DNA of 48,380 nucleotides, taken from an uncultured Verrucomicrobiota bacterium. Its GTDB lineage: Bacteria > Verrucomicrobiota > Verrucomicrobiia > Limisphaerales > UBA9464. Shown here piece after piece: positions 22,613-39,052 of this stretch (within the stretch, counting starts at the first letter, position 1; the number at the start of each line of letters is the position of its first letter). The stretch spans positions 1 to 48,380 of the forward strand of contig CAIMMI010000053.1 in NCBI GenBank assembly GCA_903842505.1, given 5' to 3'. The translations under genes and the position numbers were made by a program. Below the pieces are notes generated by a model. It saw only the letters and a program-made list of their open reading frames with translations. It did not search any database and was not told the DNA's origin.

Positions 22613-23497
22613 TCAACCGGGGGCGCGTCCAATGGAAAGTGCCGCAGCCTGAATCCCAGCCCGCAGCCACTCCGAAGGGAGCTTGTTCCTCGAGAATGAC
22701 CGCACGATGCCAGCCAGCATCGCATCCCCCGCTCCGACGGTGTTTCGCACCCGAACGGTCTTCGCTGGCACCTGGACGAGCGCATCCGATGGGTTGCCCA
22801 ACATCCACGCCCCCTCCTCTCCGCACGAAAGGACCACCCACCCACGGGTCGCTGCTGTGAGCTGTCGCAAGGCTGCCTCACGCTCACCGTGATCCTTCAG
22901 GCTGCGTCCCGCCCACTGCTCCAACTCGTGCAGATTCGGCTTCACGAGAAACGGGCGCGCCGGAACGGCTTTCCGGAACGCCGCCCCATCGCAGTCCAGG
23001 AAAACAGGAATCCCCAGTGCTCCCGCTGCCTTCACCCAACCTGCATAGAGCCCGATCGGGGCCCCCCGAACCAGCGCCCCGGAAATCACGATCATGCTGG
23101 CCCCGGCCAGCGATTCCCGCACCCGTTGATCCAACTGCTTCACCTCATCCCGATCCAACACGGGCCAGGTCGGATTCAATCGATATTGAACTCCGGAATC
23201 CGTCGTCACCACGACGTTCGCCCGGGTCGGCTTCCCGATCGCAACAGCCCGATAGGGAATTGCCTCCGAGCGTAGGCCTCGGACGATTTCCTCCCCGGTA
23301 GTGCCGCCCAAAGGCAGGATCAACTCCACCTGCGCTCCCAACCGTACCAACCATCGGGCTACATTGATCCCCTTCCCTCCCGGCCACCGTGATTCAGAAC
23401 GGACCTCGTTCTTCTCCTCAGGTTGCAGTGATTCGACGCGCCACTCGACGTCGACCGCCGGATTTGTTGAGACAACAACGATGGGCCTCTGCCTCAC
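22613..23497 (-). CDS. fruK: PfkB-family sugar kinase, 1-phosphofructokinase-like
   Basis: A 294-residue ribokinase-fold kinase. The N-terminal VSTNPAVDVEWRVESL and PGGKGINVAR (G40-R48) match the FruK/LacC/PfkB branch, and VGAGDAMLAGI supplies the catalytic Asp258 and anion hole. These support phosphorylation of a sugar phosphate such as fructose 1-phosphate; tagatose 6-phosphate is an alternative. The C-terminus stops soon after the last helix and is slightly short. The start is GTG and overlaps the stop of the giant subtilase as GTGA, so translation looks coupled. No fructose PTS gene is near, which leaves the physiological substrate open. Confidence 0.85.
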   Translation of the reverse strand: MRQRPIVVVSTNPAVDVEWRVESLQPEEKNEVRSESRWPGGKGINVARWLVRLGAQVELILPLGGTTGEEIVRGLRSEAIPYRAVAIGKPTRANVVVTTDSGVQYRLNPTWPVLDRDEVKQLDQRVRESLAGASMIVISGALVRGAPIGLYAGWVKAAGALGIPVFLDCDGAAFRKAVPARPFLVKPNLHELEQWAGRSLKDHGEREAALRQLTAATRGWVVLSCGEEGAWMLGNPSDALVQVPAKTVRVRNTVGAGDAMLAGIVRSFSRNKLPSEWLRAGIQAAALSIGRAPG

Positions 23498-26400
23498 GGT
23501 GCTGGAATGGGGATCACCCGATAGAACTGCTGCGGCTCAATGTTGAAGGGCAGCACCATCCGGAGGGTGTACCCCGTGGCTGCGGTGGCTGAACCTACGT
23601 CCGTCCAGGTCACCGGGAAGTCCAGGCCTCCGGTGGACTGGAGTTGGTAGCTGCGGCCCGGGATGGAGTTGAAATCCACGAAGGCATCACTGCCCGTGGT
23701 CGGCGGGACGAAGCTCATTTCGATGGCTGCCCGACTGTTCGGGATGCCGTTCGCCGGCGCCGACGCACGGACGGTGAAACTGAGCTGATTGGTGTCCTGA
23801 CTTCCCACGGCCAGATACCAGATGCCCGACAGGTCGATCAGTTCGTTGGTCGTCACCACCACCAACTCGGGCTGCAGGCCCGGCTTCGGGAACGTGAAGA
23901 TCCGGTTCCTCGGATTCGGGACAGACCCTTGGCTGACCACCAACTCCGCCTGACCGGTCAACCCGTAGATCTCAAACAGCACAAGCGGCGCACCCGGTTC
24001 CACCACGAAGCGGAAGAGGCGCGACGAGGCAACCTCCAGATTCCGATCCACCGGCAGATCCTCGAACAGGGTCTCGATGTCCGTCCGGTCAAACGACACC
24101 AGCGCCGTGATCGTGAAGGCCACCGGGGCCGGGTCCACCGCCTGGACCGCCACGTACCACCGCCCCGCCGCCAGCGGCACGGGCGTGGAACTCCGGTTGA
24201 TCGAGATCACCTCGCTGTTGGTGCCGGCCAGCACGGATGCGTAGTCAAACTGATTGGTCGCAACCAGCGGCAAACCCCGCTTGAGATACAGATCCACATT
24301 GCCGGTCAGCTCCGTCAGTCGCAATTCGGCAGCCGTCGCGTCCTCCGGCACATCCAGGGCAAAGTACTGAATCGAACCGCTGACCTCGTTGGTCAGCGTC
24401 AGCGGCAGGTTGTTCGTGAGGATGACCAATTGCCCTGCCAATTCAGTGGCAACCACGGAATAGCTCGAGGAATTGGTCCCCGGCGTCGCCACCGAGAGGT
24501 ACCACCGGCCGGGTGCCAACTGCACCGGCAACGTCCCCGTATCGAGCGAGATCACCTCAGGCGCCGTACCCGCGTTCGTGCTGGCGTAATCGTGCAGGAA
24601 TCGCCGGGGCAGCGTCGGGGACCGACTCAGGAAGAGGTCCACATCCGAACTCAGGGTCGGAACCTCAAACACCGCGGCCAACGCATTGGTCGAAACATCG
24701 AAGGCGTAGTAGTCCAGATAGCCCGGCTCGGAATTCGTCCGACTGAATGGGATCCCGTTCGTCAGGACGACGAGTCCGATGTTGATATCCGCCCGGATCG
24801 CGAAGTCCACCGCGGCAGGATTCGGGTTGAGAAGCGCCATGTAGTAGCGCTGCCCCCGCGGCAGGATCGGAGGCAGGTTGGTATCCACAATGAATGGATT
24901 CGACGTAGCGAAGATGTCGCCCGGCGAGGTCCCCGAGGGAACGCCGGAGTCGCTGTAGAACAGCGGCAGGAATGTGCCATCCGTAAACACCGTGTTGGTC
25001 GCAGCCCTCGCTTCCAGCGGAACGTCGACGCGGAAGAGTGCGCTCTCGCCGGGAGCCACAGTTGCTGAGTAGAGCACTCCGTTCGTCAATCGGACCACGG
25101 GTCGATTGGTCTGCATGAATGTCAGACGCAGTTCCCAACTGTCGATCGCTCCAACGGTTGTCCCCCGGGAGTCCGTGACCTCCAGCTTCCACTCACCGGC
25201 TCCGGACTGACCCAGGATGGTCTTGAAGGAATCCTCCGGTTGGTAGCTCAACTCGGCCCCCACCTGCTCCAGGGTGAACGTGTCCATCAGCACACCCAGC
25301 GGCTCTCCGTTCGTCGTCACATTACCCATCACCGTCGGGGCAATCGCGATATTCATCCGGTTGGTGGAGGCCCGGAACCGGAAGTCCGTCTTCAACCAGT
25401 TCGACGACAGGACCAGCGTCTGGTCGAGCTCCCCATTGAGGTAGAGCGCGACGGGGACGGGATTCGTGGACAGCGGATGGGTCCGGAGCTGGATCGATGC
25501 CCGATATCCAACTCCGACATTGGCGTCGAAATCGAACCTCGCAGCCGCGTCACCCAGCGCCAGCACCCTGACCCCGGTCTGGGCTTCGGTCGGCAGGCTG
25601 AGGATCGCCGCTGTGTTCGTCTCGATCGTCCATCCATCCGCCACTTCGCCCGGGGCATATAGCCCGACTTCCGCAGACTCGAAGGAATTGGTCACGATGA
25701 CCACCGGTGAGGAGTTCGACCCCGAATAAGGCGGCACCGCGAACTTGATCGGCCCTGCCGTCAGGTTGGTGCGATCCGAGAAGACGGCGTAGGTGAAGTT
25801 GGTCGAGATATTGTTCGGAACAATGGTCCCGGCAGCGGACGAAACCACCTGCGTCACCCCGTTCGTATCGGTGAACACGGCCGAAACCGAACCAACTCCA
25901 TTCCCGTATGGCGGATTAAAGCCAATCAGCAGGGCCGGGCTCGAAATACCGCTGTCAGGACCCCAGGCCCCTACAACGATTCCCGCCGTGGACGGATACG
26001 CCTGCACCCATCCCTCCAGAGTGAAGCCCGTGGAGGCGTCGATCGGCAGCACCGGCGAGCGCGCCTCCGCCGTCACACCCGAAAACCGGAGTCCGGAGTC
26101 CACCTGCCCGGGAAGGAATTCCGAGAAGCCAAGCAGGGCCAGATCATTCAAACCGAGCAGGTCCCTGCCGTTCGAATCCAACGGCCACAGGGCAGCCATC
26201 CCATCCGCCTTGCGACCGATGTCCTTGCCGAAGCCGGCAAGACCGTCCTCGTGGATGCCTCGAACCTCATTCGTTGTCAGGGGGCGACGCCAGAATGCCA
26301 TGTCGTCCAGTCCGATCGTGGCACGCCGATTCGTGAATCCCCGGGTGGGATCATTCGCCAGGCTGAGCCGCTGATTGATCGGCAGGAAGACATTCGAAAC

Positions 26401-29400
26401 GACACCCGCTGCGATCCGCTTCCCATCGACGAACAGGCTCACCCGCGAGTCGCTTGGATCATAAGCCATCGCGACGTGCTGGTAGTTCGTCAGCACCCTT
26501 CGACCGCCATAGCTTCGCCCAACGGTCGTTCCCCGGTTCTCGGTGACCATCATCCGCTGTCCCTGCGGATTGACCAGATGCACTGCCAAGTCCGAAAGAC
26601 GGGGATGCGTGATCCGCAAGCCGACCTCCACCGCAGCCACGGGACGGGTGTCGTTCACGACAATTCGCGATTCGGTGGTCGCCGCATCCCGAAGGACCAC
26701 GTTCGCCAACGGGTCCGAGCGCTGGGTGCGGTTGAACTGATCGTCCAGATCCTGCTCGATGAACCGGGCGATCTGGTACTTCACCGCCACGTTGTTCGGA
26801 TTGCAGACCGAGACAAAGTAACGACCCGGCACCAGCGGGGGTTCATCCCGGATACCCAGCGAAACCGAACCACCCGGGGGAGCAAGGGTTGCGAACATCT
26901 CGGATGCGTCCGGATTGGCCGGGTCCGCCGGCACCGAACGACGGATGTGAACCTCCAGCGGCAACGACGGATTGAAGTTGGTCACCACGATCGTCAACCG
27001 GCTCGCATTGGCCGGCACGTTGACCACCTCCAACTCGCACTGACCTGGTTGGACAATCCGGTCAACCAAACCGATCCCGAGGTCATTCGGTTGCACGATC
27101 AGGTCGAGCGAATCGATCTGACCCACGTTCCCCAAGGCATCGTCGACCGTCTGCAACAGCCACACGCCATTCGCCTGCTCGCCCAGATAGTCAATCAGAC
27201 TCCCGGGTCCATCCGAAGGCACGGATCCCGGGAAGGTCGTGCTGCTGGCATCATCATAGACGGTCGTGACGTTGGTTCCCCACTGCACGCGACCAAAGTC
27301 CACGTCCGAGATCTGCCCATGATTGTTCAGGATGGCCGAGACGTTGTCGTGAAACAGATTTCCAATCAGGTCCGGGAAGTTCTGGTGGGACAGCGTCTGC
27401 TCCACGAACACCCGCCGGATCTCACCTCCCGAGAGCCCCAGCGCCATGTAGTAGCCCAGACCCGGGTTCGCCGGAGTCCCATCCGGAATGGGCTGCCGGA
27501 TCGGGATCCCGAGGAATCCCAGGTTTCCATCCGGACGAAGTCCCCCGAAAGGACGCACCGAGGAAACCGCAACGAAGGTGTACTCCGCTGCTTGCTGATC
27601 CTCCGACTTCACTCCGACGTAGTATACCTCGCCGTTCACCGGCGAATTCGTGAACGCCACGTATTCCGTGCCCCCGCGCAGGGTCGACTTGAAGGACGCC
27701 GAGATGGCAGACGGAACCAGGTTGGTCAGGCCAGGATCCCGGGACACGTATAGGTCCAGATCGGCATCGGCCGCTCTCGGCCTGCCGAGATTCGGAGGGA
27801 AGAACGTGACGAAGGCCACGTTGGATCCATTGGTGAGTGCTCCACCGAATCCCGTTCCTCCCGGTGTATTCGTGAACACATAGAACTTCCATTGATTGGA
27901 AGATCCGTTCGTTCCTCCGAAGAGCGGTGAGTTGGCACCGACGCGCTCATTGAACAACGGCAACCCGTTGGTCAACGGCACCAGCGCCGGCCTCCGATAG
28001 GAAATGACGTTGGCAGCCACCGTCTCCGCATCCTCGATCGTCCCGACCACTCCCAGATCCTCTGCCCCGTCCGACCGGATGACCAAGGCGGCGTCCTGCA
28101 CGATGTCTCGCGGGTGCATCTGGCGCGCGTTCACATTCACCCGACTCGCCTTCACGATCACGACGAACTCCTGGGGCACCGGTGACGGAATCACGATGCG
28201 CTCGACGTTGTTGACCCTGTCGGCCGTGATCGTCACGGCATTGGTCGACGTGGTCGGGTTCCCGAACGGGTCCGTGGCCGGATTGGTCGGGGTGGTATTC
28301 GTTGCAGACTGCAGGCGGGTAAACGCCGTGCCGCCCTCGAAATCATTGCCAAAGTAGAACTCCCCTTTGGCGGCGTTGGTAACGACCAGATCCAGGTCGT
28401 TCACCAACTTGATCGCCGCGGCGGGATTGCCCGGAGGATCCGTCCAGACCAGCGTGATACGGACCGGATGGTTGGTAGCTTCCGGGTTCGTGAGCTTGAT
28501 CCGGAAAGCCCGGGACTCCCCCGTCGCCAATCCCAACTGGTTCGATCGCCCCACCACCGGGAAACCGATGATCTGGTTGTTGGTCCCGGACTGTTCACCG
28601 ACAAACCCGTTGAGCGGTTTGCCCGACGCCAGGAAACCGCTGTTGAGCGACCGCAGGACCGAGGGACGTCCCCAACCGGCATAGTTGATCGTGCCCTTCG
28701 GGTCGGGTTGGTACCGCTGGTTCTCCACCTCAGATGAGTTGATGAGGATCGCCTTGTACCCTTCGGGAGGAATCCGGTTGCTCTGACGGAGTTCGTAGTA
28801 CTCCTGCAACTGCGCGAGAATACCCGTGATGGCCGGAGCGGCCATCGACGTTCCGGATTCGTAGCGGTAAAAGGGGCCCACTTCATCCGTCAATTCCTCC
28901 GTCACGGGGAACAGGTCGTCGTCCGGCGGTATGTTGTACTCCAAGCGCCATTGAGCCGACCGGGCAGAGAGGATGTAGGAACCAGGCGCAACCACGTCCG
29001 GCTTGAACCGCCCGAACTCACCCTCGGTTCCGATCCCGGTATTGCCGCGACTCGAGAAGCCGGCAATCTGGGAATCGGAATCCGTCTCCGCCTCGAAGAT
29101 CCGGTTGGTCACATACGAAGGGACCTCCGGGTTGTAGCCCCGATCCGGGATCGGAGTGAGTCCGGATCGGACCACCACGCCGTTCGTATCCACAACCACG
29201 GTATTGGTCAGGACCCGGCGTGACTCCAACGCACCGACAGAAATAACATTCTTGGCCGTGGCCGGAGCCGACACGGAATCCGGAGCGCCGCCCAATCCAT
29301 TGTCGCCCCCGTCCCCCTCGTTGCCCGCGGCAAAAACGAAAAGGATGGGTTGGTCGCCCGTGACCTTCGGCAGTGCATCCCGGGATGCCGCGTCGTAAGA

Positions 29401-30711
29401 CGCCGCAATCGAGTTGTACTCGTAAGCCCCCGGATAACCCCAACTGTTGTTCGAGAGGGGCGCGTTGGTGCGTCCCGTCGATCCGTTCAACGCGAGATTG
29501 GTCGTTGCGTAGGTTTCCTGCAGGAAGACATCCGAAACCAAGGGTCCCGTCTCCAGATCGATCGGAAGCACGAAGAGTCGCGCGGACGAAGCGCGACCAC
29601 TGAAGTTCGCGTTCGAAACCGAACCTCGGGCCAGCGTGACCGAGCCCGACTGCGAACCATTGCCAGCGATGGTGGCCGCGACGTGCGTGCCATGGCCCAC
29701 CGGGTCCTGAAGCGTGGACGAATCGGTGGCGAAAACACGGCCCGCAAGGTCCGGGTGCGTGGCATCAACACCGCTGTCGTTGAGGTTCACCAGCACATTG
29801 GAACCCGTCAGCCCCAACGTCCGGGTCACGTTGGTCCAGTCGTCCGAGGACTCGAGCAGGAAACCGGCGCGGTCGTTGGAAACCTTCCGTCGATGCATCT
29901 CTTCGACCAGCGTGATGCCGGGCAGGCGAGCCAGTGCCACGATCGCCCCCGAAGGAGCCTGCACCGAAACCAATTCGCCGAACGGTCCGCGCTGGCGCAG
30001 CAGGGTCTTCGCGCCGAGAGCTTCCACCAAAGGCAGGGTCTGGTCTGGATCCAGAACGGTCAGCAAAAGCTCCGCAGGAACCGCCCGCTCCTCGAGCACT
30101 GCCTGAGCCAGCCGGGGCTCCAGCTTGAAATGCGGTTCGTTGGCCAGGACCGCGCCAATCTCCGGCGCCGTCACCATCGCCGCAGCCACCTCTGGCGTCG
30201 CCTGCACCAGATAGGCGTTCTTCGGGATATAGGAAATGATCCGCGCCCCGGAGATCGCCAGACGCTGACGAAAGGCGTCATCCACCTCTCCCCGGCTCTG
30301 CACAATGTAAGTCCCAGGGTCCTCGCCGCTCCGCAACATCTCCGGCACCGGCACCGGTTCGCCACTCGCCGTATCCACGAAGGCGTTCCGGAGGAGGATC
30401 ACCCGCTCGTTGTTGGCGAGCGCATTCCACCCATCCAGCGTGTTCCGTACCCGATGCGGGAAGCGCGGATCCGCATTCGGAATTGGCGCTCCTTTCGGAA
30501 TGGAGGTGATGGGAACCCAGCGTCCCGCGCCGGCGGTGAGCTGGAGCCTCAGCGGCGCAGCCCCGGCACCCGACGGGACCACCCCAGCGACGGCCAGGAG
30601 TTCCGGCATGGCCGGCCCCGTTGGCGTCGGTGGTCGGACCGATCGGTGGACGGCCAGCCCGACCAGGACGGCGATCAGGGCGAAGGGAGCAATGCGGCGA
30701 ATGAGGCGCAT
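23494..30711 (-). CDS. Giant secreted subtilase with P-domains, LamG and PPC repeats
   Basis: A 2405-residue exported serine protease. A signal or anchor helix (about 7-25) precedes a prodomain-like region and a peptidase S8 domain (about 290-660) with the triad D312 (LNDSGVD), H340 (GHGTH) and S622 (GTSMAAP) and oxyanion Asn464 (AAGNEG). Then comes a KP-43-like jelly roll (about 725-855, LVWTDPPG and NDLDLVV), a P-domain (about 1095-1205), a second P-domain interrupted by a LamG-like segment and a carbohydrate-binding-like segment (about 1346-1866), several PPC-type repeats (about 1875-2310), and the family-style tail ending QFYRVIPIPAP. The ATG at 30711 puts the signal peptide at the N-terminus; an upstream start would add 62 unlikely residues. 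It follows the cassette A gene by 59 bases and is the likely cargo or partner of the pilus-like machine. Confidence 0.88.
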   Translation of the reverse strand: MRLIRRIAPFALIAVLVGLAVHRSVRPPTPTGPAMPELLAVAGVVPSGAGAAPLRLQLTAGAGRWVPITSIPKGAPIPNADPRFPHRVRNTLDGWNALANNERVILLRNAFVDTASGEPVPVPEMLRSGEDPGTYIVQSRGEVDDAFRQRLAISGARIISYIPKNAYLVQATPEVAAAMVTAPEIGAVLANEPHFKLEPRLAQAVLEERAVPAELLLTVLDPDQTLPLVEALGAKTLLRQRGPFGELVSVQAPSGAIVALARLPGITLVEEMHRRKVSNDRAGFLLESSDDWTNVTRTLGLTGSNVLVNLNDSGVDATHPDLAGRVFATDSSTLQDPVGHGTHVAATIAGNGSQSGSVTLARGSVSNANFSGRASSARLFVLPIDLETGPLVSDVFLQETYATTNLALNGSTGRTNAPLSNNSWGYPGAYEYNSIAASYDAASRDALPKVTGDQPILFVFAAGNEGDGGDNGLGGAPDSVSAPATAKNVISVGALESRRVLTNTVVVDTNGVVVRSGLTPIPDRGYNPEVPSYVTNRIFEAETDSDSQIAGFSSRGNTGIGTEGEFGRFKPDVVAPGSYILSARSAQWRLEYNIPPDDDLFPVTEELTDEVGPFYRYESGTSMAAPAITGILAQLQEYYELRQSNRIPPEGYKAILINSSEVENQRYQPDPKGTINYAGWGRPSVLRSLNSGFLASGKPLNGFVGEQSGTNNQIIGFPVVGRSNQLGLATGESRAFRIKLTNPEATNHPVRITLVWTDPPGNPAAAIKLVNDLDLVVTNAAKGEFYFGNDFEGGTAFTRLQSATNTTPTNPATDPFGNPTTSTNAVTITADRVNNVERIVIPSPVPQEFVVIVKASRVNVNARQMHPRDIVQDAALVIRSDGAEDLGVVGTIEDAETVAANVISYRRPALVPLTNGLPLFNERVGANSPLFGGTNGSSNQWKFYVFTNTPGGTGFGGALTNGSNVAFVTFFPPNLGRPRAADADLDLYVSRDPGLTNLVPSAISASFKSTLRGGTEYVAFTNSPVNGEVYYVGVKSEDQQAAEYTFVAVSSVRPFGGLRPDGNLGFLGIPIRQPIPDGTPANPGLGYYMALGLSGGEIRRVFVEQTLSHQNFPDLIGNLFHDNVSAILNNHGQISDVDFGRVQWGTNVTTVYDDASSTTFPGSVPSDGPGSLIDYLGEQANGVWLLQTVDDALGNVGQIDSLDLIVQPNDLGIGLVDRIVQPGQCELEVVNVPANASRLTIVVTNFNPSLPLEVHIRRSVPADPANPDASEMFATLAPPGGSVSLGIRDEPPLVPGRYFVSVCNPNNVAVKYQIARFIEQDLDDQFNRTQRSDPLANVVLRDAATTESRIVVNDTRPVAAVEVGLRITHPRLSDLAVHLVNPQGQRMMVTENRGTTVGRSYGGRRVLTNYQHVAMAYDPSDSRVSLFVDGKRIAAGVVSNVFLPINQRLSLANDPTRGFTNRRATIGLDDMAFWRRPLTTNEVRGIHEDGLAGFGKDIGRKADGMAALWPLDSNGRDLLGLNDLALLGFSEFLPGQVDSGLRFSGVTAEARSPVLPIDASTGFTLEGWVQAYPSTAGIVVGAWGPDSGISSPALLIGFNPPYGNGVGSVSAVFTDTNGVTQVVSSAAGTIVPNNISTNFTYAVFSDRTNLTAGPIKFAVPPYSGSNSSPVVIVTNSFESAEVGLYAPGEVADGWTIETNTAAILSLPTEAQTGVRVLALGDAAARFDFDANVGVGYRASIQLRTHPLSTNPVPVALYLNGELDQTLVLSSNWLKTDFRFRASTNRMNIAIAPTVMGNVTTNGEPLGVLMDTFTLEQVGAELSYQPEDSFKTILGQSGAGEWKLEVTDSRGTTVGAIDSWELRLTFMQTNRPVVRLTNGVLYSATVAPGESALFRVDVPLEARAATNTVFTDGTFLPLFYSDSGVPSGTSPGDIFATSNPFIVDTNLPPILPRGQRYYMALLNPNPAAVDFAIRADINIGLVVLTNGIPFSRTNSEPGYLDYYAFDVSTNALAAVFEVPTLSSDVDLFLSRSPTLPRRFLHDYASTNAGTAPEVISLDTGTLPVQLAPGRWYLSVATPGTNSSSYSVVATELAGQLVILTNNLPLTLTNEVSGSIQYFALDVPEDATAAELRLTELTGNVDLYLKRGLPLVATNQFDYASVLAGTNSEVISINRSSTPVPLAAGRWYVAVQAVDPAPVAFTITALVSFDRTDIETLFEDLPVDRNLEVASSRLFRFVVEPGAPLVLFEIYGLTGQAELVVSQGSVPNPRNRIFTFPKPGLQPELVVVTTNELIDLSGIWYLAVGSQDTNQLSFTVRASAPANGIPNSRAAIEMSFVPPTTGSDAFVDFNSIPGRSYQLQSTGGLDFPVTWTDVGSATAATGYTLRMVLPFNIEPQQFYRVIPIPAP

Positions 30712-30770
30712 GTGAATCGGAGGCGTTGGCGCTCGAAACATCACGGGAAAATCAACGGGGTGGCGGCAGT

Positions 30771-33700
30771 TCAGTTGTCGGGCGTCAGGACCCGATGATC
30801 CTCCACCACCGGCTTGAGCTGGCCGGAACGGGGGGCACCGTCGAACCGGACGACAGTGCGCGTTGCGAACTCGCCGGTGACGACGTAGTTCGTGCAAAGA
30901 CCGTAGAAGACACCTGGCCGGGTCACGATGGAGTTCGGCGCCGGCTTCAGGGATTGGCCATACGCATAGATCACGACCCTCGGCTCATCCGTCCTCAGCA
31001 ACGACAGCGTCTGTTGAGGGATCATTTCCAGAACCTCATCGGGAACCTGGGCGGGGTCGGTCGTCGCATTGAACGGCCGGATATAAGGAGAGAACTGGTC
31101 AAAAACGACGCCATTCTCGTTGGTGTAGGATCCCACCGAAAGGGCGTTGGCGGACAGCACATGCCCCATCCTCGGGAAATATCCGCCAGGGAAGTTGGTC
31201 CGGGAACCGTTGATGCTCTCCACGATCGACTTCATCTGGGCGCTGGCGGGTTCGATGAACAAGCGCTGCAGCACCGCTGCGTTGGCGGGATCATTGGTCA
31301 ACACAGGGACGGCGGACAGCACCGCCGACCATGCCGCCGCATTGGTCTGGTTGACCGAGAGCAATCCCTTGGCCGCATTCTCGTTCACCGCCGTCGTGAA
31401 CAGGTCGAGGATAGCCCAATCATTCTCTGGCCGGGTGAACGGGTGACCTGCCCACCCGGCCCAACTCTTCTGCCCAAGATACCGGTCGAGCAACCGCTGG
31501 GTCCCCACCTCGGGACGACGCGCCTTGAGATAGAGGGTCTGCCAAGGCGTTCCGCGGTGAACCCGGCCCAGCCATCCGATGCTCGGGAATTTGTTGGTCG
31601 GGAAATTCCATGCATCTGGATTCCGTACCAGAGGATCCTTGTACGCGACGTCAAAGGCCGTGCTGTTCGCGTCTGAAGTCCCGACATCCACAGCGGTGCC
31701 CAGGGTCGGATTCACGCCCCACGGAGCGTAGGCGCTGACAACCTTGGTTCGGGGCCCAAGGTGATTCGTGAAGAACTGCTCCTCGGATCCGACCCGCGCG
31801 CCGGGCCCAGGACGGAGTCGGCTGCCATCCGGCAACGGGACCTCGACCAACCCTTCCGGCGACGTGAACACCGCCTGCCCCGGTGCCAGGTCATCCGCGG
31901 TATAATGCACCAAGGGATCATTGGCCTGCCGACGATCGGTCAGCAGAAGCACGGGCGAAGGGGTATAGCCGGCCTGAGACACCCTGCCACCAAACCGAGC
32001 CAGGAATTGAGGCGTGATCTGCAACCCGGCACGCCGCGGTTTTCGGAAAAGGAAGTAGTACATTCCGTCCTTCTCGGATTCGACCTGCGAATCATTCGGC
32101 CGCTGCCCGGGTGCATCTCGCCACAGATCCTGCGGCAGGTTGAGCACCGATCCGTTCTGGTTCAACCCCATCGACGCGTCCAACTGGAACCCAACGCCGC
32201 GCGTCACAATCGTATTGGCGGCATACTGGTTGGTTTCCCAGAAGCGGAACATCGAGACAGCCCCGGCGCTGCGCCCTCCTGGCCGACCAAACATCGACAG
32301 AACGTTCGTCTCGTAGAGCACGCTCTTGATGTTCACGACATCCAGCACACGGCCGGAGGCCTGATCCACCAGCGCGTAGACCAACCGATTCGTGAAGGCC
32401 ACCGTCAACCGAGGTGCCGGAGCCGTCGCCGGAACGTATCCACCGTTGGTCTCTCCCGCTGGGAAGAGGAGGCGTCGCACATGATCGTAGACAAAGTTGG
32501 TCGCGATGAGGGAATTCAAGGGCGCGAGATATTGGCCCGCCCGCCACTGGCCAGCCGGAATCACGGCCGAGGCCCGCCGGAAACCATTGGTGAACACCCT
32601 CGGTCGCGCGTTGAAGGCGTCGTTCTCATCCCGGATCGCGAAGTCGAAGTAGTTCGTCGCAATCATCGTCACCCCCGTCCGATTGCTGATCGAATAGGAA
32701 TTCCAGGCCTCCATCCCGAGCGTGTTGGCAAAATCAAACCGGTACTGGGCTTCCGTCCCGAATCGGGCGTCTTCCCAAGGACGGGCGTTGGTCACACTCA
32801 GGGCGTCAGTCGCCTGCGCCTTGACCACCCGCAACCGACGGGTCACTTGCAGACGACTCTGCCAGAAACCTTCCTGAAAGTTCGGCAACCCCTTCTTGGC
32901 CCCGACCACCCACGGAATGTTGAAGGCATTGAAATCCAGGCCGGCTGCCACGATCTCGTCCGGATCCGGCGAAGTGGACAGGCGAGCCTGTTGGATGGGA
33001 TCTTCGAGATCGATCCAAGGCCGACTCAAGGCGACCGAACTCGTCACCTCGACGAAGCCTGCCAACCGGACAACCGGTAATCCATTCGTCACCTGCCGGT
33101 ATAGGATGGGACGGAAGACGGAGGGAACTTCATCCCTCGGATTCCCGGGACGCGCCGCTGAGTGGTAGTGGGTCGCATCATAGAGATTCGCCGCGACCTG
33201 GGCGAGCCGGTGAACCCTGGCGTCCCAGCGGTAAATATTCGTCACCCCACGAACCACGTTCGTGCCATGCACCGGCAACCCATGCCCCAGATGGAAAGTG
33301 CGGGGCGAGGCGAGCAGCGCTGCATCCGGGAGCCCATTCGTGAACTCGGACAGGAAAAGCCGGTGCACCGCATTGGTGTACCACTGGATCGGAGTCCAAT
33401 CCCGGAATGTCCGGACGTCCGCGCTCGTCGCGAGGTCCTGGTTCACATCCCCGTCCGGCGCATAGTTCAGATTCAACTTGGCCCGGCGATAGAACAGGCC
33501 GGCCATATTGGTTCCGGACTCATACCGACCGTCGCCCGTGTCCGTGCCCAAGCTGCCCAGAAGCCGATAAAAGGTATTCTGGTCATAGGTGCTCCGCAGC
33601 AACTGGCCGGCGAAATCCCGGCGCCCGATCAACCGATCCTGCAGGTCAGTTCCCAAGGTGCTGTCCGCCAGATCCGTCATGTCGTGGATCTGACGACTGT

Positions 33701-34838
33701 TATCGGATCCGACCCAAGGAGTTCCCACCGCATCTTCAGAACCTCCGGCCAGATAAAGATCCTGGGGACGGCGAAACTCGGCGAGTGTCAGCGGGATCGG
33801 CCCATCCGATTTGTTATCGAACCCATCCACCGCGAACAGCGGATCCCGACCGAAATACTGGACCGGACTCTGGGCGATCCCCAGGCCACGTCGGGACCAG
33901 AACAGTCGATCCGCATCCGTAAACGCCAACCCGGACGAGACCGAGGCCAGAGCCGGCCGGTATTGATAGGCAAACGGAGACGCAGTGCCGGTCGGGTGCC
34001 AGATGTTGGTGTTCAGGTCCGCCAGGAAACCACCGAGATTGACCTCCCAGGCTCCCACGCCCTGATTCCTCAGGAATCCGCTTCCGTCCGTCCGACGGAA
34101 CTTCACCTCGTTGTGGGCATAATTGATATCGAGCGTCTTGCCCGCGGGCAGGATCAGGTAGGCATACCGCATCAGGAAGCGGTTGGTGCCGCTGTGGATC
34201 GCGTCGCTATGCTCACGAACGCCGATCCACTGGGGATCGCCCACCAACTCACCAACACCCACCCGTTGGCCCTTTTGGTCGAACATCACCTGAAGTCCGT
34301 TCGTGTCGAACACCCCATTCCGGTTGAGGTCGAGGTAATATCGGAACTCGGGCGCCACCAGCGGACTCCGGCTGACCTGCGCGAACACGGGCGGGCGCGG
34401 ATCGAAATAAAGGTTCATCAACGACGCCCGGTACAACTGCACGTCCGAGCTGCTGCCCAACTGGAAGACCGGCTGACCATCCGCCCGGAAATAGGTCGTG
34501 GCGTTCGTCAGGATGTTGGGATTCCGAAGGTCGAGGGAGTCATTGGCCAACGCCTGCAACTGGGCGATGTTGAGCGTGGCGTTGACCCAGTTCGTGGAGA
34601 CCAACAGGTCGATCTGGAACCGGTTGGAAGACCCCAGGATCCGCCCGGCAATCTCGGACTGCGCCCGTTGCAGCGCCGTCTCGGCCGCGTACTGCGCATC
34701 CAACTGTTCTGCCGCCGCGCCCACCGAGGCCCGGTCCTGCCGGGTCACGGCAAGGAATGCGACGGCGGTGATGGTCACCACCGACAGCATGATCAGCGTG
34801 ATGACGAGCGCGATGCCGCGTTGTTGATTTCGGTTCAT
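30771..34838 (-). CDS. Giant PilX-like minor pilin, Verru_Chthon cassette A-like
   Basis: A 1355-residue protein beginning MNRNQQRGIALVITLIML, a PilX/GspK-type prepilin-like N-terminus with one membrane helix (about 9-30) and a Gln/Ala/Glu-rich amphipathic helix to about residue 65. The remainder is a long extracytoplasmic region rich in Asn, Arg, Thr and aromatic residues with no enzyme motif. Size, N-terminus and gene order match what I know as cassette protein A of the verrucomicrobial four-gene pilin cassette. Its ATG overlaps the stop of the cassette C gene by 4 bases. By analogy with GspK it may cap a pseudopilus tip; this is inference. Confidence 0.8.
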   Translation of the reverse strand: MNRNQQRGIALVITLIMLSVVTITAVAFLAVTRQDRASVGAAAEQLDAQYAAETALQRAQSEIAGRILGSSNRFQIDLLVSTNWVNATLNIAQLQALANDSLDLRNPNILTNATTYFRADGQPVFQLGSSSDVQLYRASLMNLYFDPRPPVFAQVSRSPLVAPEFRYYLDLNRNGVFDTNGLQVMFDQKGQRVGVGELVGDPQWIGVREHSDAIHSGTNRFLMRYAYLILPAGKTLDINYAHNEVKFRRTDGSGFLRNQGVGAWEVNLGGFLADLNTNIWHPTGTASPFAYQYRPALASVSSGLAFTDADRLFWSRRGLGIAQSPVQYFGRDPLFAVDGFDNKSDGPIPLTLAEFRRPQDLYLAGGSEDAVGTPWVGSDNSRQIHDMTDLADSTLGTDLQDRLIGRRDFAGQLLRSTYDQNTFYRLLGSLGTDTGDGRYESGTNMAGLFYRRAKLNLNYAPDGDVNQDLATSADVRTFRDWTPIQWYTNAVHRLFLSEFTNGLPDAALLASPRTFHLGHGLPVHGTNVVRGVTNIYRWDARVHRLAQVAANLYDATHYHSAARPGNPRDEVPSVFRPILYRQVTNGLPVVRLAGFVEVTSSVALSRPWIDLEDPIQQARLSTSPDPDEIVAAGLDFNAFNIPWVVGAKKGLPNFQEGFWQSRLQVTRRLRVVKAQATDALSVTNARPWEDARFGTEAQYRFDFANTLGMEAWNSYSISNRTGVTMIATNYFDFAIRDENDAFNARPRVFTNGFRRASAVIPAGQWRAGQYLAPLNSLIATNFVYDHVRRLLFPAGETNGGYVPATAPAPRLTVAFTNRLVYALVDQASGRVLDVVNIKSVLYETNVLSMFGRPGGRSAGAVSMFRFWETNQYAANTIVTRGVGFQLDASMGLNQNGSVLNLPQDLWRDAPGQRPNDSQVESEKDGMYYFLFRKPRRAGLQITPQFLARFGGRVSQAGYTPSPVLLLTDRRQANDPLVHYTADDLAPGQAVFTSPEGLVEVPLPDGSRLRPGPGARVGSEEQFFTNHLGPRTKVVSAYAPWGVNPTLGTAVDVGTSDANSTAFDVAYKDPLVRNPDAWNFPTNKFPSIGWLGRVHRGTPWQTLYLKARRPEVGTQRLLDRYLGQKSWAGWAGHPFTRPENDWAILDLFTTAVNENAAKGLLSVNQTNAAAWSAVLSAVPVLTNDPANAAVLQRLFIEPASAQMKSIVESINGSRTNFPGGYFPRMGHVLSANALSVGSYTNENGVVFDQFSPYIRPFNATTDPAQVPDEVLEMIPQQTLSLLRTDEPRVVIYAYGQSLKPAPNSIVTRPGVFYGLCTNYVVTGEFATRTVVRFDGAPRSGQLKPVVEDHRVLTPDN

Positions 34839-35827
34839 CGGAGGAAGGGGCGCAGCGGAACGCGTTGCCGGAAGCTCTGGATGCGCGCGAGATTGTTGGT
34901 CAGGAATCGATTCCGGATCGCCGGATTTTCGGGAAGCGCCCGGTACTGGTCGAGAAGCCGGGGCTCCAAGGCATCCACCTCGATCTCGACATAGGACGGC
35001 ATCGCCGTCCCAGTGAAGGTCGTCTCGGTCAGCAAGCCTCCCTGGGCGTGACTCAACTGGACCGGCGCCAAGGCCGGAACCGCAGGGTCCGAAGCCGGGA
35101 CGGATGCAGGACGAACCGGAAGCTGGTTCGTGGGATAAAACACATTGTAGGGACGCCCGACCTCGTCATAAGGCGTCACCTTGAAGTTCAGCACGCCATC
35201 CAGGACGCGGGCTGAGTTCGTCCGGTACGGCCATTCTGCCAGCGTCTGCCCGGCAAACGGACGGCCAAGCACATGGTTGAGGAGTGAGGCCGCGGCCGAC
35301 CGACCGCGCACCAGGAACCGAACCGGGGTGTTGGTCACCACGTTCTCCCCCGGGATCCGCTGGGAATCGCCGCGGTCCTCGTATCGGTAAAGCGTCCCGA
35401 TCGGAGGAGTCGTCCGGAGGGACGGATCATTCTCGTTCGCGATGAAGTAACCGAACACCGACCACTGCTGGTCCGTCACGTTCCGGGTCGCGAAGAACTC
35501 CTGAAGCACCGGTTGGCGTTCCTGGAAAAGCGCGTCCTGATCCTCGATCAGGTTGGGGGCGACCGAGAGGCGGGTAACGAAGTGCGGCCCGTCGAAGACA
35601 CCCGCAGGACGGGCGTGCTCCAGATCCTTGGACATCAACTCCAGGGCCGACCGTGATCCCTCGAAGACGTCCACCTGCCCAACGCTGCTGCGCAACGCCC
35701 GCTGGGTCTGGTCGAACATCGCGTACAACGCCAGGATCACCACGCTGAGGAGGCCAACCGCCACCAGCATTTCGATCAGGGAGAATCCCCGCTGCGCCGT
35801 CCGTCGGATGATGGTTCTAGAAAACAT
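34835..35827 (-). CDS. Prepilin-type protein, GspJ/PilW-like, Verru_Chthon cassette C-like
   Basis: A 330-residue pseudopilin. The prepilin peptidase site is GFSLIE: cleavage would fall after the Gly, leaving Phe+1 and Glu+5, followed by the helix MLVAVGLLSVVILALYAMFDQTQRAL. The globular part (about 60-330) contains no catalytic motif. The DQTQRALR segment is typical of cassette C and GspJ-like members. It overlaps the cassette A gene by 4 bases and follows the cassette B gene by 7 bases. Confidence 0.85.
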   Translation of the reverse strand: MFSRTIIRRTAQRGFSLIEMLVAVGLLSVVILALYAMFDQTQRALRSSVGQVDVFEGSRSALELMSKDLEHARPAGVFDGPHFVTRLSVAPNLIEDQDALFQERQPVLQEFFATRNVTDQQWSVFGYFIANENDPSLRTTPPIGTLYRYEDRGDSQRIPGENVVTNTPVRFLVRGRSAAASLLNHVLGRPFAGQTLAEWPYRTNSARVLDGVLNFKVTPYDEVGRPYNVFYPTNQLPVRPASVPASDPAVPALAPVQLSHAQGGLLTETTFTGTAMPSYVEIEVDALEPRLLDQYRALPENPAIRNRFLTNNLARIQSFRQRVPLRPFLR

Positions 35828-35834
35828 GGGACAC

Positions 35835-36668
35835 TCAGTTCAGCGACGGAATCGCGTTCGTCCGACCGCCATTGAAGCGGTAGGCCGGGTGAAGGGTGCC
35901 AAGGAAATTGGTCGTCAGGAGATCCCGCTCCCCGCGGATCAAGGATCGGAAGGAGCGCCGACTCCCTCCGGTCCTGAAATCGGCTCCCACCCGGAACACC
36001 GGCCATTGGAAGGTCAGGCGCAGGTCACTCATCCCCTGCTCGATCCGGAACAACTGGCTCGCCACGATGTTGGACTCGTTCCGATTCGTGTATCCGTTCA
36101 ATATCAATGGAGGCCGGGTCGGCGTGGTCTGGGTCTCGGCAGTCACCAGATACCGCATGGCCGTCTGCAACCGGGCCTGACTCGGGAGCCCACCGGCATC
36201 CCGGTACGGCTTTTCGCTGAACGGACTGCCGAAGGTTCGGAACTGGGCCGTCACCTCGTTCTGCACCACCCCGTTCCGGACCGCCTCATAGCGGGGCATG
36301 CCCAGCAGCGCGGTCACCTGCCACGACGCGGTCAGCGGAATGACTGTACCCGGCAGCGCTTCCTGAAAGTTGGGCCCCCGGAAATAATACTCCTTGTTCT
36401 CGGCACCCGTCCGACGCCACAGGATGAAATCCACCTGGTTGGTGAGGTCCGGGATCGCCATCGCTCCGCTCCGGATGGATTCGATCAGGAACTGGGCATC
36501 CTGTGAGACCAGCGTGTCCTCCCGGTTCTGCTTCTGCACGTTCAGGCCAGAGGGAAGCACTCCGATGATCGCGGTCAACGCGATGCCGATGACCGCGATG
36601 CAGAGTGCGATCTCGGTCAGGGTGAAGGCCGCCTGCTGCGGTGCTTTGGGTGATTGGATCTTCATCAC
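35835..36668 (-). CDS. Prepilin-type protein, GspI/PilV-like, Verru_Chthon cassette B-like
   Basis: A 277-residue pseudopilin with the prepilin motif AFTLTE (Phe+1, Glu+5) and helix IALCIAVIGIALTAIIGVLPSG. The residue before the cleavage site is Ala instead of the usual Gly, as in some other members. The VLPSGLN segment after the helix resembles cassette B proteins. The start may be GTG at 36668, giving a GTGA overlap with the cassette D gene, or the ATG that follows it directly. The downstream globular domain is unassigned. Confidence 0.83.
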   Translation of the reverse strand: MMKIQSPKAPQQAAFTLTEIALCIAVIGIALTAIIGVLPSGLNVQKQNREDTLVSQDAQFLIESIRSGAMAIPDLTNQVDFILWRRTGAENKEYYFRGPNFQEALPGTVIPLTASWQVTALLGMPRYEAVRNGVVQNEVTAQFRTFGSPFSEKPYRDAGGLPSQARLQTAMRYLVTAETQTTPTRPPLILNGYTNRNESNIVASQLFRIEQGMSDLRLTFQWPVFRVGADFRTGGSRRSFRSLIRGERDLLTTNFLGTLHPAYRFNGGRTNAIPSLN

Positions 36669-37555
36669 TTCGGCTGGTTCTTGATCAGGCGCGCGCGCCC
36701 CGTGTAGTACGAAACCCGGATCAGCCCGTTCGTGTAACCGAACTGGGGTGTCTCCACCACGTCAGCAACTCCCAGGCGGGTCTGGCCATCGGGTTGCTTC
36801 GGGGGCAACACCGATCCAGGACCGACCGCCAGGACCACGTCGTTCCCAGGAAGCACCGGATTCCCCAGCGCGTCCTGCAAACCGGCGTAGGTCACGTCGG
36901 CAATCCGACCGCTCGGATCAAAGGCGATGAAGGGCACCAGCGGCATGTTCGCCAGACCGTTCCAGATCGGAGTCGATCCGCTGTAGTGGTTCCGAAGCTC
37001 GACGCCCGGGATCACCAGCGGGAAAGGGAAGTTGGCCTGCGCCAATCGATGCGGCCGGTTGGTTGCCAACGGCCCGGCCAAACCGTCCGTCAACCCCAGC
37101 ATCTCCTTCGGGAAGATCACCCCCTGCGGCAGCGACCGCCACTCCGTCAGGTACCGCGGGCGCTCCACTCCAGGCTGCTCACCCAACCGTCGCTGCGTAT
37201 AGATCGCATACGACGAATACTGCCCGAGCACGACGTTGGTCAGGACGGTCAGGGCTTCGTCCCGAAACCCACCGAATTGGCCCGAAAGCGCCGTGAACGT
37301 CGCCTGCTGCGCCCAACTGTTGGTGGGGGCGAACAGGACGTAGACCGTCGAACGGTTCTTGATCGCCAACTGCCGCGCATACCGGAGTTCGTCCACCATC
37401 TGCCGCTGCCCGGCCGTGAAGGCGTTCGCCCGGCCGAATCCCTTGAAGGTGGGAACCGCGATCGCCGCCAGCGTTCCGATGATCGCCAGCACCACCAGCA
37501 ACTCGATCAGCGTGAACGCCCGACTCCGGGGTTGGATGGGTCTCAAGGGATTCAT
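36665..37555 (-). CDS. Prepilin-type protein, GspH-like, Verru_Chthon cassette D-like
   Basis: A 296-residue pseudopilin with the motif AFTLIE and helix LLVVLAIIGTLAAIAVPTFKGF. A GspH-like segment follows: QRQMVDELRYARQLAIKNRSTVYVLF matches the amphipathic helix and first strand of GspH/FimT proteins. The C-terminal domain ends GRARLIKNQPK. The stop overlaps the start of the next pilin gene, so it is translationally coupled. It is 26 bases downstream of the GspG-like gene. Confidence 0.85.
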   Translation of the reverse strand: MNPLRPIQPRSRAFTLIELLVVLAIIGTLAAIAVPTFKGFGRANAFTAGQRQMVDELRYARQLAIKNRSTVYVLFAPTNSWAQQATFTALSGQFGGFRDEALTVLTNVVLGQYSSYAIYTQRRLGEQPGVERPRYLTEWRSLPQGVIFPKEMLGLTDGLAGPLATNRPHRLAQANFPFPLVIPGVELRNHYSGSTPIWNGLANMPLVPFIAFDPSGRIADVTYAGLQDALGNPVLPGNDVVLAVGPGSVLPPKQPDGQTRLGVADVVETPQFGYTNGLIRVSYYTGRARLIKNQPK

Positions 37556-37581
37556 GGCGGCTTGGAGTTGGGCCAGACGGC

Positions 37582-38325
37582 TTACTTCCAGCTATAGAGA
37601 TTGTCCCCGTTCACGGTCCCCTTGGCCGTCTGCCCCACCGGCGCCCGGCTGAAGTCCACCTGACCATCCGCACCCAGCGAGAACACCACCACCGGCGCGT
37701 TGATGAACTCCTTCTCACCCGGTGCCCCGGCGAACGGATTGCGCACCCGTCCGTCCGAATCCAGGTCGACGATCACGATGTACGGAAATCCATAGGCATC
37801 CCGGAACGCCCCATCATCGTCGCTCACCCGATCCGGCTTCTTGCCCGTCTCCGACTTGACCGTCAGGAAGATCTCCTGCTGCGGGTTCAACTCGTTGCCC
37901 TTGTTGATGACCTCTCCGTTGATCGTCCGCTGCTCGCGCAGCAGGATGGTCATCAACTCGGCGTTGCTCACCTGCCAAGGCGCACCCGATCGATTGAGGA
38001 CCGACGTGTAACCCACGCCCGGCTTCGACGCCTGCAACTGCCCGCCTTCCTGCTGCGTGCCGAAAATGAAGTCCGGGAAATTCGCGTTCACCGCCGCCCG
38101 CGTCTTCGCCGAGGCCGGCAACCGCGAGTACTTCGCCTCATAGGCCTGCACCGCCGCCGCCAGATTCGACATCTGCGACAGCACCTGCTTCTTCTTCGCG
38201 TTGGCCGACACCCGCGAAACCGCCGGCAGCAGCATGCCCGCCAGGATCGCGATGATGGCAATGACGACCAGCAACTCGATCAGCGTGAAACCGCTGCGGC
38301 GCCGGGTTTGGAATCGGGATTTCAT
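37582..38325 (-). CDS. GspG-like prepilin-type protein (second)
   Basis: A 247-residue pseudopilin. The N-terminus MKSRFQTRRRSGFTLIELL carries a basic leader, the Gly/Phe cleavage site and Glu+5, followed by IAIIAILAGMLLPAV, the classic verrucomicrobial and planctomycete form. The helix continues into a heptad-like KKKQVLSQMSNLAAAVQAYEAKY segment and the YSRLPAS motif of GspG-like proteins. An in-frame upstream start would add 30 residues without pilin character, so the ATG at 38325 was chosen. It lies 25 bases after the first GspG-like gene. Confidence 0.85.
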   Translation of the reverse strand: MKSRFQTRRRSGFTLIELLVVIAIIAILAGMLLPAVSRVSANAKKKQVLSQMSNLAAAVQAYEAKYSRLPASAKTRAAVNANFPDFIFGTQQEGGQLQASKPGVGYTSVLNRSGAPWQVSNAELMTILLREQRTINGEVINKGNELNPQQEIFLTVKSETGKKPDRVSDDDGAFRDAYGFPYIVIVDLDSDGRVRNPFAGAPGEKEFINAPVVVFSLGADGQVDFSRAPVGQTAKGTVNGDNLYSWK

Positions 38326-38350
38326 TCTCGGAAAGGTTGAGGGTTCAACT

Positions 38351-39052
38351 TCAGTTCTTCCAGTTGCCGATGATCTCCTTGCGTCCGCGCACGATGATTT
38401 CGGCCCAAATATCATAACTCCCGGGGTTGTGGATCGGGTTGCTCGAGTTATACCGCCACGGGTTCAATCGGGGACGGCTCGGAATCGGCGGCGTGAACCC
38501 GCTGTTCGGCGGCCAAGGCACCGGCGCCACCAGGACCTCGATGTCCGGATTGTCCGAGATCTGCGCGTGCTGGCTGGCCTTGAAGTCCATCCGGAACAAC
38601 CGCCGGATCGCATTCGTAGGCTGCGCGTTCACAAAACCATCCCGGCGGAACACCGCCTCCAACTGCGTCGGCAACAACCGCGCATCCACCGCGTCCGAAT
38701 CCGCCACCGGCACGAAGTATCCCTCCTTGCCCTGCCGCACCACCATCACCCCGGTCAACTCGTAGAACAGCGGGTGTATGATCGAATCCACCACCGGCGT
38801 CCCATCCGCCGCCGCACCGGTCACATGGTCCGGCGGATACACGCCAAAGCGGGCCTTGTAGGCCTCGATCCCGGTGATCACCTTCTGTAGCTCTGCCCGC
38901 GTCCGGCTCTCGCGGATCCGGGCGGTCGCCTGCGGCGCCAGGCCGACGAGCAGACCTGCCAGGACCGCGATGACCGAGATCACGACCAGCAGCTCAATCA
39001 GCGTGAAGCCCGCCTCGGCGGACCTCTTCACGGTGTTTTTCGGCGCTTTCAT
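38351..39052 (-). CDS. GspG-like prepilin-type protein (first)
   Basis: A 233-residue pseudopilin: MKAPKNTVKRSAEAGFTLIE supplies leader and cleavage motif (Gly/Phe, Glu+5), then LLVVISVIAVLAGLLVGLAP and an amphipathic helix RAELQKVITGIEAYKARFGVYPPD that matches the major-pseudopilin GspG pattern up to the YPPD turn. Its C-terminal half differs fully from that of the second GspG-like protein. An upstream ATG would add 13 residues overlapping brnA. It is the first pilin gene of the 39052-22613 run and starts 35 bases after the brnA stop. Confidence 0.85.
   Translation of the reverse strand: MKAPKNTVKRSAEAGFTLIELLVVISVIAVLAGLLVGLAPQATARIRESRTRAELQKVITGIEAYKARFGVYPPDHVTGAAADGTPVVDSIIHPLFYELTGVMVVRQGKEGYFVPVADSDAVDARLLPTQLEAVFRRDGFVNAQPTNAIRRLFRMDFKASQHAQISDNPDIEVLVAPVPWPPNSGFTPPIPSRPRLNPWRYNSSNPIHNPGSYDIWAEIIVRGRKEIIGNWKN

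Follow-up and report, generated by a model that had tools for sequence, protein, structure and literature searches.

This study investigated whether the P-domain of a giant subtilase, encoded in the genome of an uncultured Verrucomicrobiota bacterium, is split by a single LamG domain whose two halves have changed places. A sequence-only reading of the window, which denotes the whole stretch of 48,380 nucleotides analyzed here, had described such a split and had proposed either a genuinely permuted LamG set within a P-domain or else the outcome of a rearrangement or of faulty assembly. All of the amino acid strings quoted in that reading were found in the order given there in the minus-strand ORF translation, and its residue coordinates were accurate to a few residues.

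Architecture of the subtilase and its split P-domain

Residue numbers follow the 2405-residue numbering, which starts from the ATG at 30711 and was also used in the earlier reading. The subtilase is presumed to be secreted, and all three of the active-site motifs of the S8 family (Asp, His, and Ser) are present in its translation. Downstream of the S8 domain (Table 1), the N- and C-terminal profile parts of a P-domain (PF01483) follow each other in order. Pfam analysis of the protein reported P_proprotein in two separated stretches, the first of which (profile positions 2-38) matched nucleotides 26527-26637, and recognized only the C-half of Laminin_G_3. The N-half of the P-domain covers residues approximately 1339-1405, the LamG C-half residues 1409-1502, and the LamG N-half residues 1504-1634, and the P-domain is taken up again from residue 1636. 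The same P-domain is broken twice, by the predicted permuted LamG and then, before its last third, by a further domain at approximately 25255-25701. Neither this second interruption nor a weak P-domain-like C-terminal stretch (GVWLLQTVDDALGNVGQIDSLDLIV; E 0.15), located at approximately 27097-27192 on the minus strand upstream of the split P-domain, had been part of the earlier account. Four other P-domain matches in the genome of the window are uninterrupted according to Pfam.

Table 1. Coordinates of the subtilase, its domains, and the neighboring gene in the window.
Feature	Coordinates	Strand	Basis or remark
Open reading frame, 2467 aa from TTG at 30897	23494-30897	minus	
Subtilase gene, 2405 aa from ATG at 30711	23494-30711	minus	Peptidase_S8 E 8e-39 (Pfam)
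Peptidase_S8 catalytic domain	28717-29805	minus	Asp (NDSGVD), His (GHGTH), and Ser (GTSMAAP) motifs visible
P-domain N-terminal part, to the ENRG strand and loop	26497-26697	minus	P_proprotein 2-38; intact loops of orthologues
Predicted permuted LamG, original C-terminal half (NYQHVAMAYD ... LDDMAFWRRPLTTNEVRGIHEDG...)	26206-26487	minus	hhalign; Laminin_G_3 79-150
Predicted permuted LamG, original N-terminal half (GMAALWPLDSNG ... GFTLEGWVQ ... VVSSAAGTIVPNN)	25810-26202	minus	hhalign; rotation
P-domain middle part (TNFTYAVFSDRTNLTAGPIKFAVPPY)	25726-25806	minus	adjoins the ENRG loop in the empty-loop orthologues L056, L061, and L062
Second nested domain, jelly-roll-like (FESAEVGLY...DGWTIETN...MDTFTLEQV)	25255-25701	minus	absent in L046-L048; without Pfam match
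P-domain C-terminal part (EDSFKTILGQSGAGEWKLEVTDSRGTTVGAIDSWELRLTF)	25123-25227	minus	P_proprotein profile 52-86 (Pfam)
PPC (bacterial pre-peptidase C-terminal) domain, better of two stretches	24139-24369	minus	E 9.5e-13
PilX/GspK-like protein, 1355 aa, directly upstream of the subtilase	30771-34838	minus	

Most subtilase loci with enough flanking sequence have the 1355-residue PilX/GspK-like gene directly upstream, and orthologous loci could be recognized because they share this neighbor. Its presence before the subtilase throughout the order suggests a conserved pseudopilus-linked secreted protease. In the window, this gene and three N_methyl pseudopilin-like genes occupy positions 30771-38415 on the minus strand, directly upstream of the subtilase.

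Comparison of the orthologous loci revealed that the loop after the ENRG strand of the P-domain is occupied in different ways. The loop is empty in five orthologues (L056 and L059-L062), and it is filled by the permuted LamG in the family of the window and in the other genomes with intact junctions. In a further group (L057, L058, L064, L068, L069, L071-L075, L078, L079, and L201), it holds a domain of approximately 95 residues that has no Pfam match, with the pattern NYDFF..PDxMxVYYDGxxIFDSG...DFGPGxxT noted for L057, L058, L064, L068, L071, L073-L075, and L201, and in L065 and L070 it is filled by the jelly-roll-like domain. The ENRG loop looks like an insertion hotspot. At the second insertion point, which precedes the final third of the P-domain, most orthologues of the order (e.g. 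L057, L058, and L064-L067) carry a jelly-roll-like domain of approximately 150 residues, for which Pfam returned no match. In L046-L048, the middle part of the P-domain runs on into its C-terminal part without this second insert, and the two insertions are therefore separable. Several families (L054, L055, L069, L071-L073, L075, and L076) have a LamG of normal order nested inside the jelly-roll-like domain, which gives a nesting depth of three, namely LamG in jelly-roll-like domain in P-domain; L054 and L055 additionally have the permuted LamG.

Element order within the LamG insert

We cut an insert profile (45 sequences, 233 columns) from the alignment of the relatives and compared it with 12 LamGs of normal order by using hhalign. 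In its native order, the insert profile produced two separate, swapped matches only: positions 5-89 matched normal LamG positions 131-216 (E 2.7e-15), and positions 99-174 matched positions 1-74 (E 1.7e-12). E-values of this size exclude chance as the cause of the swapped halves, and together with the split Pfam match they bear out the earlier description of a P-domain interrupted by a LamG with its halves exchanged.

We then rotated the insert profile in steps of 4 columns. The results revealed a single, sharp maximum at a chain start of ADGMAALW, which is the predicted join. At this rotation, the score rose from approximately 103 in native order to 177.7, with 199 aligned columns covering template positions 1-216 of 217 (E 4.2e-27). 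The middle strands (template positions approximately 75-130) aligned more poorly than the two halves did. Both LamG parts are present once and are complementary, with neither overlap nor gap, and their order is swapped relative to that of their homologues. The last motif of the C-half is separated from the first motif of the N-half by approximately 3-10 residues, which join the old LamG termini.

The individual inserts of three divergent proteins behaved similarly. The insert of the window matched Laminin_G_3 positions 79-150 in native order and gave one match to positions 7-150 of 151 once rotated. The L054 and L184 inserts had split or partial Pfam matches in native order and one contiguous match after rotation (up to positions 1-150 of 151), and a normal LamG that was permuted artificially as a control behaved like the natural permuted ones in Pfam. 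The clearest example among single sequences was G146 (L184): once rotated, its insert shared 48% identity with an ordinary LamG across positions 1-218 of 219, whereas the native order gave two pieces, at 56% and 48% identity.

The rotation and complementarity results argue that the insert is one complete LamG whose former ends are fused and whose chain has been opened just before the W/YxHVA strand. At the level of sequence, the earlier proposal of a genuine permuted LamG within a P-domain is thus upheld: the insert reads as a complete LamG in C-half-then-N-half order that splits the P-domain after the ENRG strand.

Distribution and origin of the arrangement

The full 553-residue region aligned end to end in approximately 40 genomes of the family of the window, at identities from 61% to approximately 32%; throughout this region, the order was kept in one open frame. 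A profile of the P-LamG junction was matched over its full length in 59 of 320 genomes from the order of the window, in five families (among the matches listed, 44 in the family of the window, 11 in f15, 2 in f54, and 1 each in f44 and f14). The intact-junction matches had E-values below 2e-39, and the next match (2e-22) covered one side only. In all 59 genomes, the C-half of this LamG precedes the N-half, contrary to the usual N-to-C element order. The permuted copies, all within one bacterial order, are 28-61% identical to that of the window.

No full P-LamG junction was detected outside the order in 387 genomes sampled across the phylum, no further relatives were found in viral contigs, and plasmid records gave no match. 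As a control for the normal order, we employed a chimeric junction profile that combined the P-domain N-half with the LamG N-half; in the 320 genomes, this profile yielded half matches only and no full match. No homologue in these genomes had a LamG of the usual order directly at the P-domain loop, an arrangement that would have spoken against the earlier proposal. The one longer match to this profile, at positions 19-148 in G196, proved to be a spacer followed by an ordinary LamG, with no P-domain.

Both LamG halves are under purifying selection. The dN/dS values were approximately 0.06-0.18 for both halves in four of five pairs, with one half non-computable in one pair and synonymous sites near saturation; the fifth, very close pair gave values of 0.02 and 0.34.

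In trees of the rotated permuted LamGs and the normal ones, the permuted LamGs were placed within or next to a normal-order subfamily of the same order. Members of this subfamily often stand head to tail, with linkers of approximately 5-16 residues, as in L112, which has four LamGs in succession, and in L135, which has two. The frequent arrays in this donor subfamily suggest either out-of-phase capture of one repeat or duplication followed by trimming. Most likely, the permuted LamG has a single origin, either in the out-of-phase capture of a segment one repeat long from a head-to-tail LamG array or in the duplication of a LamG within the P-domain and the later loss of its outer halves; both courses would give the permuted order seen here. 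No intermediate of the permutation route was found, so we can only infer the exact genetic route. An origin from the normal LamG in the jelly-roll-like domain of the same protein appeared likely in a small tree and vanished with better sampling.

A separate locus in a genome of the same taxonomic class, G410:C1:3308129-3312217, has five LamG matches with identical scores and an exact spacing of 954 bases in a frame of 5605 residues, and is a near-perfect tandem array.

The same permutation could also have arisen independently two or more times, in the lineage of f14 (G146) and in the others. The G146 copy is far nearer to the normal LamGs (48% identity), and in the free tree it clusters with them. 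On the host-gene tree, the trait is spread over at least three lineages, and a single gain therefore needs several losses or replacements. Nevertheless, constraining all permuted LamGs to one group gave a likelihood slightly above that of the free search, and a repeated origin would require both cut point and host loop to coincide each time. A single origin was not rejected on the host tree (p-AU 0.108), and neither was one clade of permuted LamGs on the LamG tree (p-AU 0.555). We consider a repeated origin unlikely.

Fold, role, and significance

Chain ends of the concanavalin-like or LamG fold lie close together. This closeness and the complementarity of the two segments are the grounds on which both halves are predicted to form one jelly-roll sandwich. 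The two segments might instead be leftovers of neighboring tandem LamGs, that is, half-domains that do not fold together or that pair with other parts or chains. Tandem LamG arrays do hold the same C-then-N succession, and AlphaFold models built from three sequences (the window and two relatives) had very low pLDDT values over the insert (approximately 25, against 41.8 for the 553-residue region; 34.8 for the insert alone). However, the pieces complement each other exactly across five families, over 1-216 of 217 template positions with no overlap or gap, both halves are under purifying selection, and half sandwiches would expose their cores. Leftover half-domains are accordingly a very improbable explanation. 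As for misassembly, or a chimera of two paralogues, the genome of the window is fragmented (362 contigs) and has many LamG genes, but the same open arrangement recurs in 59 separately assembled genomes at amino acid identities down to approximately 30% and orthologues at the same locus show an empty or otherwise filled loop, so that the assembly error considered in the sequence-only reading can be dismissed with near certainty.

The explanation that we favor is a circularly permuted, complete LamG in the ENRG loop of the P-domain, forming one jelly roll, probably of single origin and serving as a binding module; we give this explanation as a whole a probability of approximately 0.88. Under it, a LamG chain of the Laminin_G_3 type would have been opened in the loop that precedes the W/YxHVA strand, a linker of approximately 3-10 residues would connect its former C- and N-termini, and the permuted domain would occupy the loop that follows the ENRG strand of the P-domain in a secreted subtilase. 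The permuted domain would most likely adopt the ordinary LamG jelly roll, with its new, adjacent ends continuing the two flanking P-domain strands.

Glycans or proteins are the usual ligands of LamG modules of this type. The subtilase follows a pseudopilin-like gene array and carries PPC domains, and the permuted LamG is likely to serve, next to the protease domain, in binding a substrate or a surface.

The permutation of concanavalin A is reportedly post-translational; work by Carrington (1985) is cited in PMC3281007. The permutation of the LamG in the window, by contrast, lies in the gene and is nested in a P-domain. According to a passage in PMC3281007, favin and concanavalin A are a natural circular permutation within the concanavalin-like fold class; they resemble the present case in having a permuted sequence in a legume-lectin sandwich, the same fold class as that of the insert. 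Fold b.29 is among the folds with non-sequential alignments (PMC2213659). The duplication-deletion model of permutation has been applied to swaposins and DNA methyltransferases (PMC2213659), in which, as here, tandem copies are the likely source of a gene-level permutation; the present case differs in that the segment, one repeat long, is housed in another domain and in that tandem relatives of normal order still exist in the same bacterial order. Insertion is likewise combined with permutation in the RNA polymerase insertional domains, which PMC13114784 mentions as inserted domains that are themselves permuted, but their host and guest are different, and here the empty sites and the donor relatives can be identified.

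Compared with Laminin_G_3 (PF13385), which has the concanavalin A-like lectin/glucanase fold, the insert contains all of the same sequence elements (48% identity in the closest case) but has its halves swapped and is nested in another domain. Similarly, both profile ends of the proprotein convertase P-domain (PF01483) are present after the subtilase domain, but the P-domain in the window is split twice, first by the permuted LamG and again by an unnamed jelly-roll-like domain. The open-licence papers searched contained no account of a permuted LamG, whether inside a P-domain or elsewhere. Circular permutation is already known in the concanavalin-like fold; the well-documented permuted LamG in a P-domain appears to be new. 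Profile searches report such permuted domains as half-domains, which calls for caution.

A wider reading, which we offer tentatively and hold to be somewhat doubtful, is that the family keeps the stages of a permutation (tandem donors, empty acceptors, and the nested copy), that the loop is a general acceptor of at least three unrelated domains, and that the permutation was possibly fixed twice. For most natural circular permutations, structure databases show the end product alone. The presence of insert-free acceptors, normal-order tandem relatives, and permuted copies within one order makes the route by which a domain was permuted and built into another traceable and testable.
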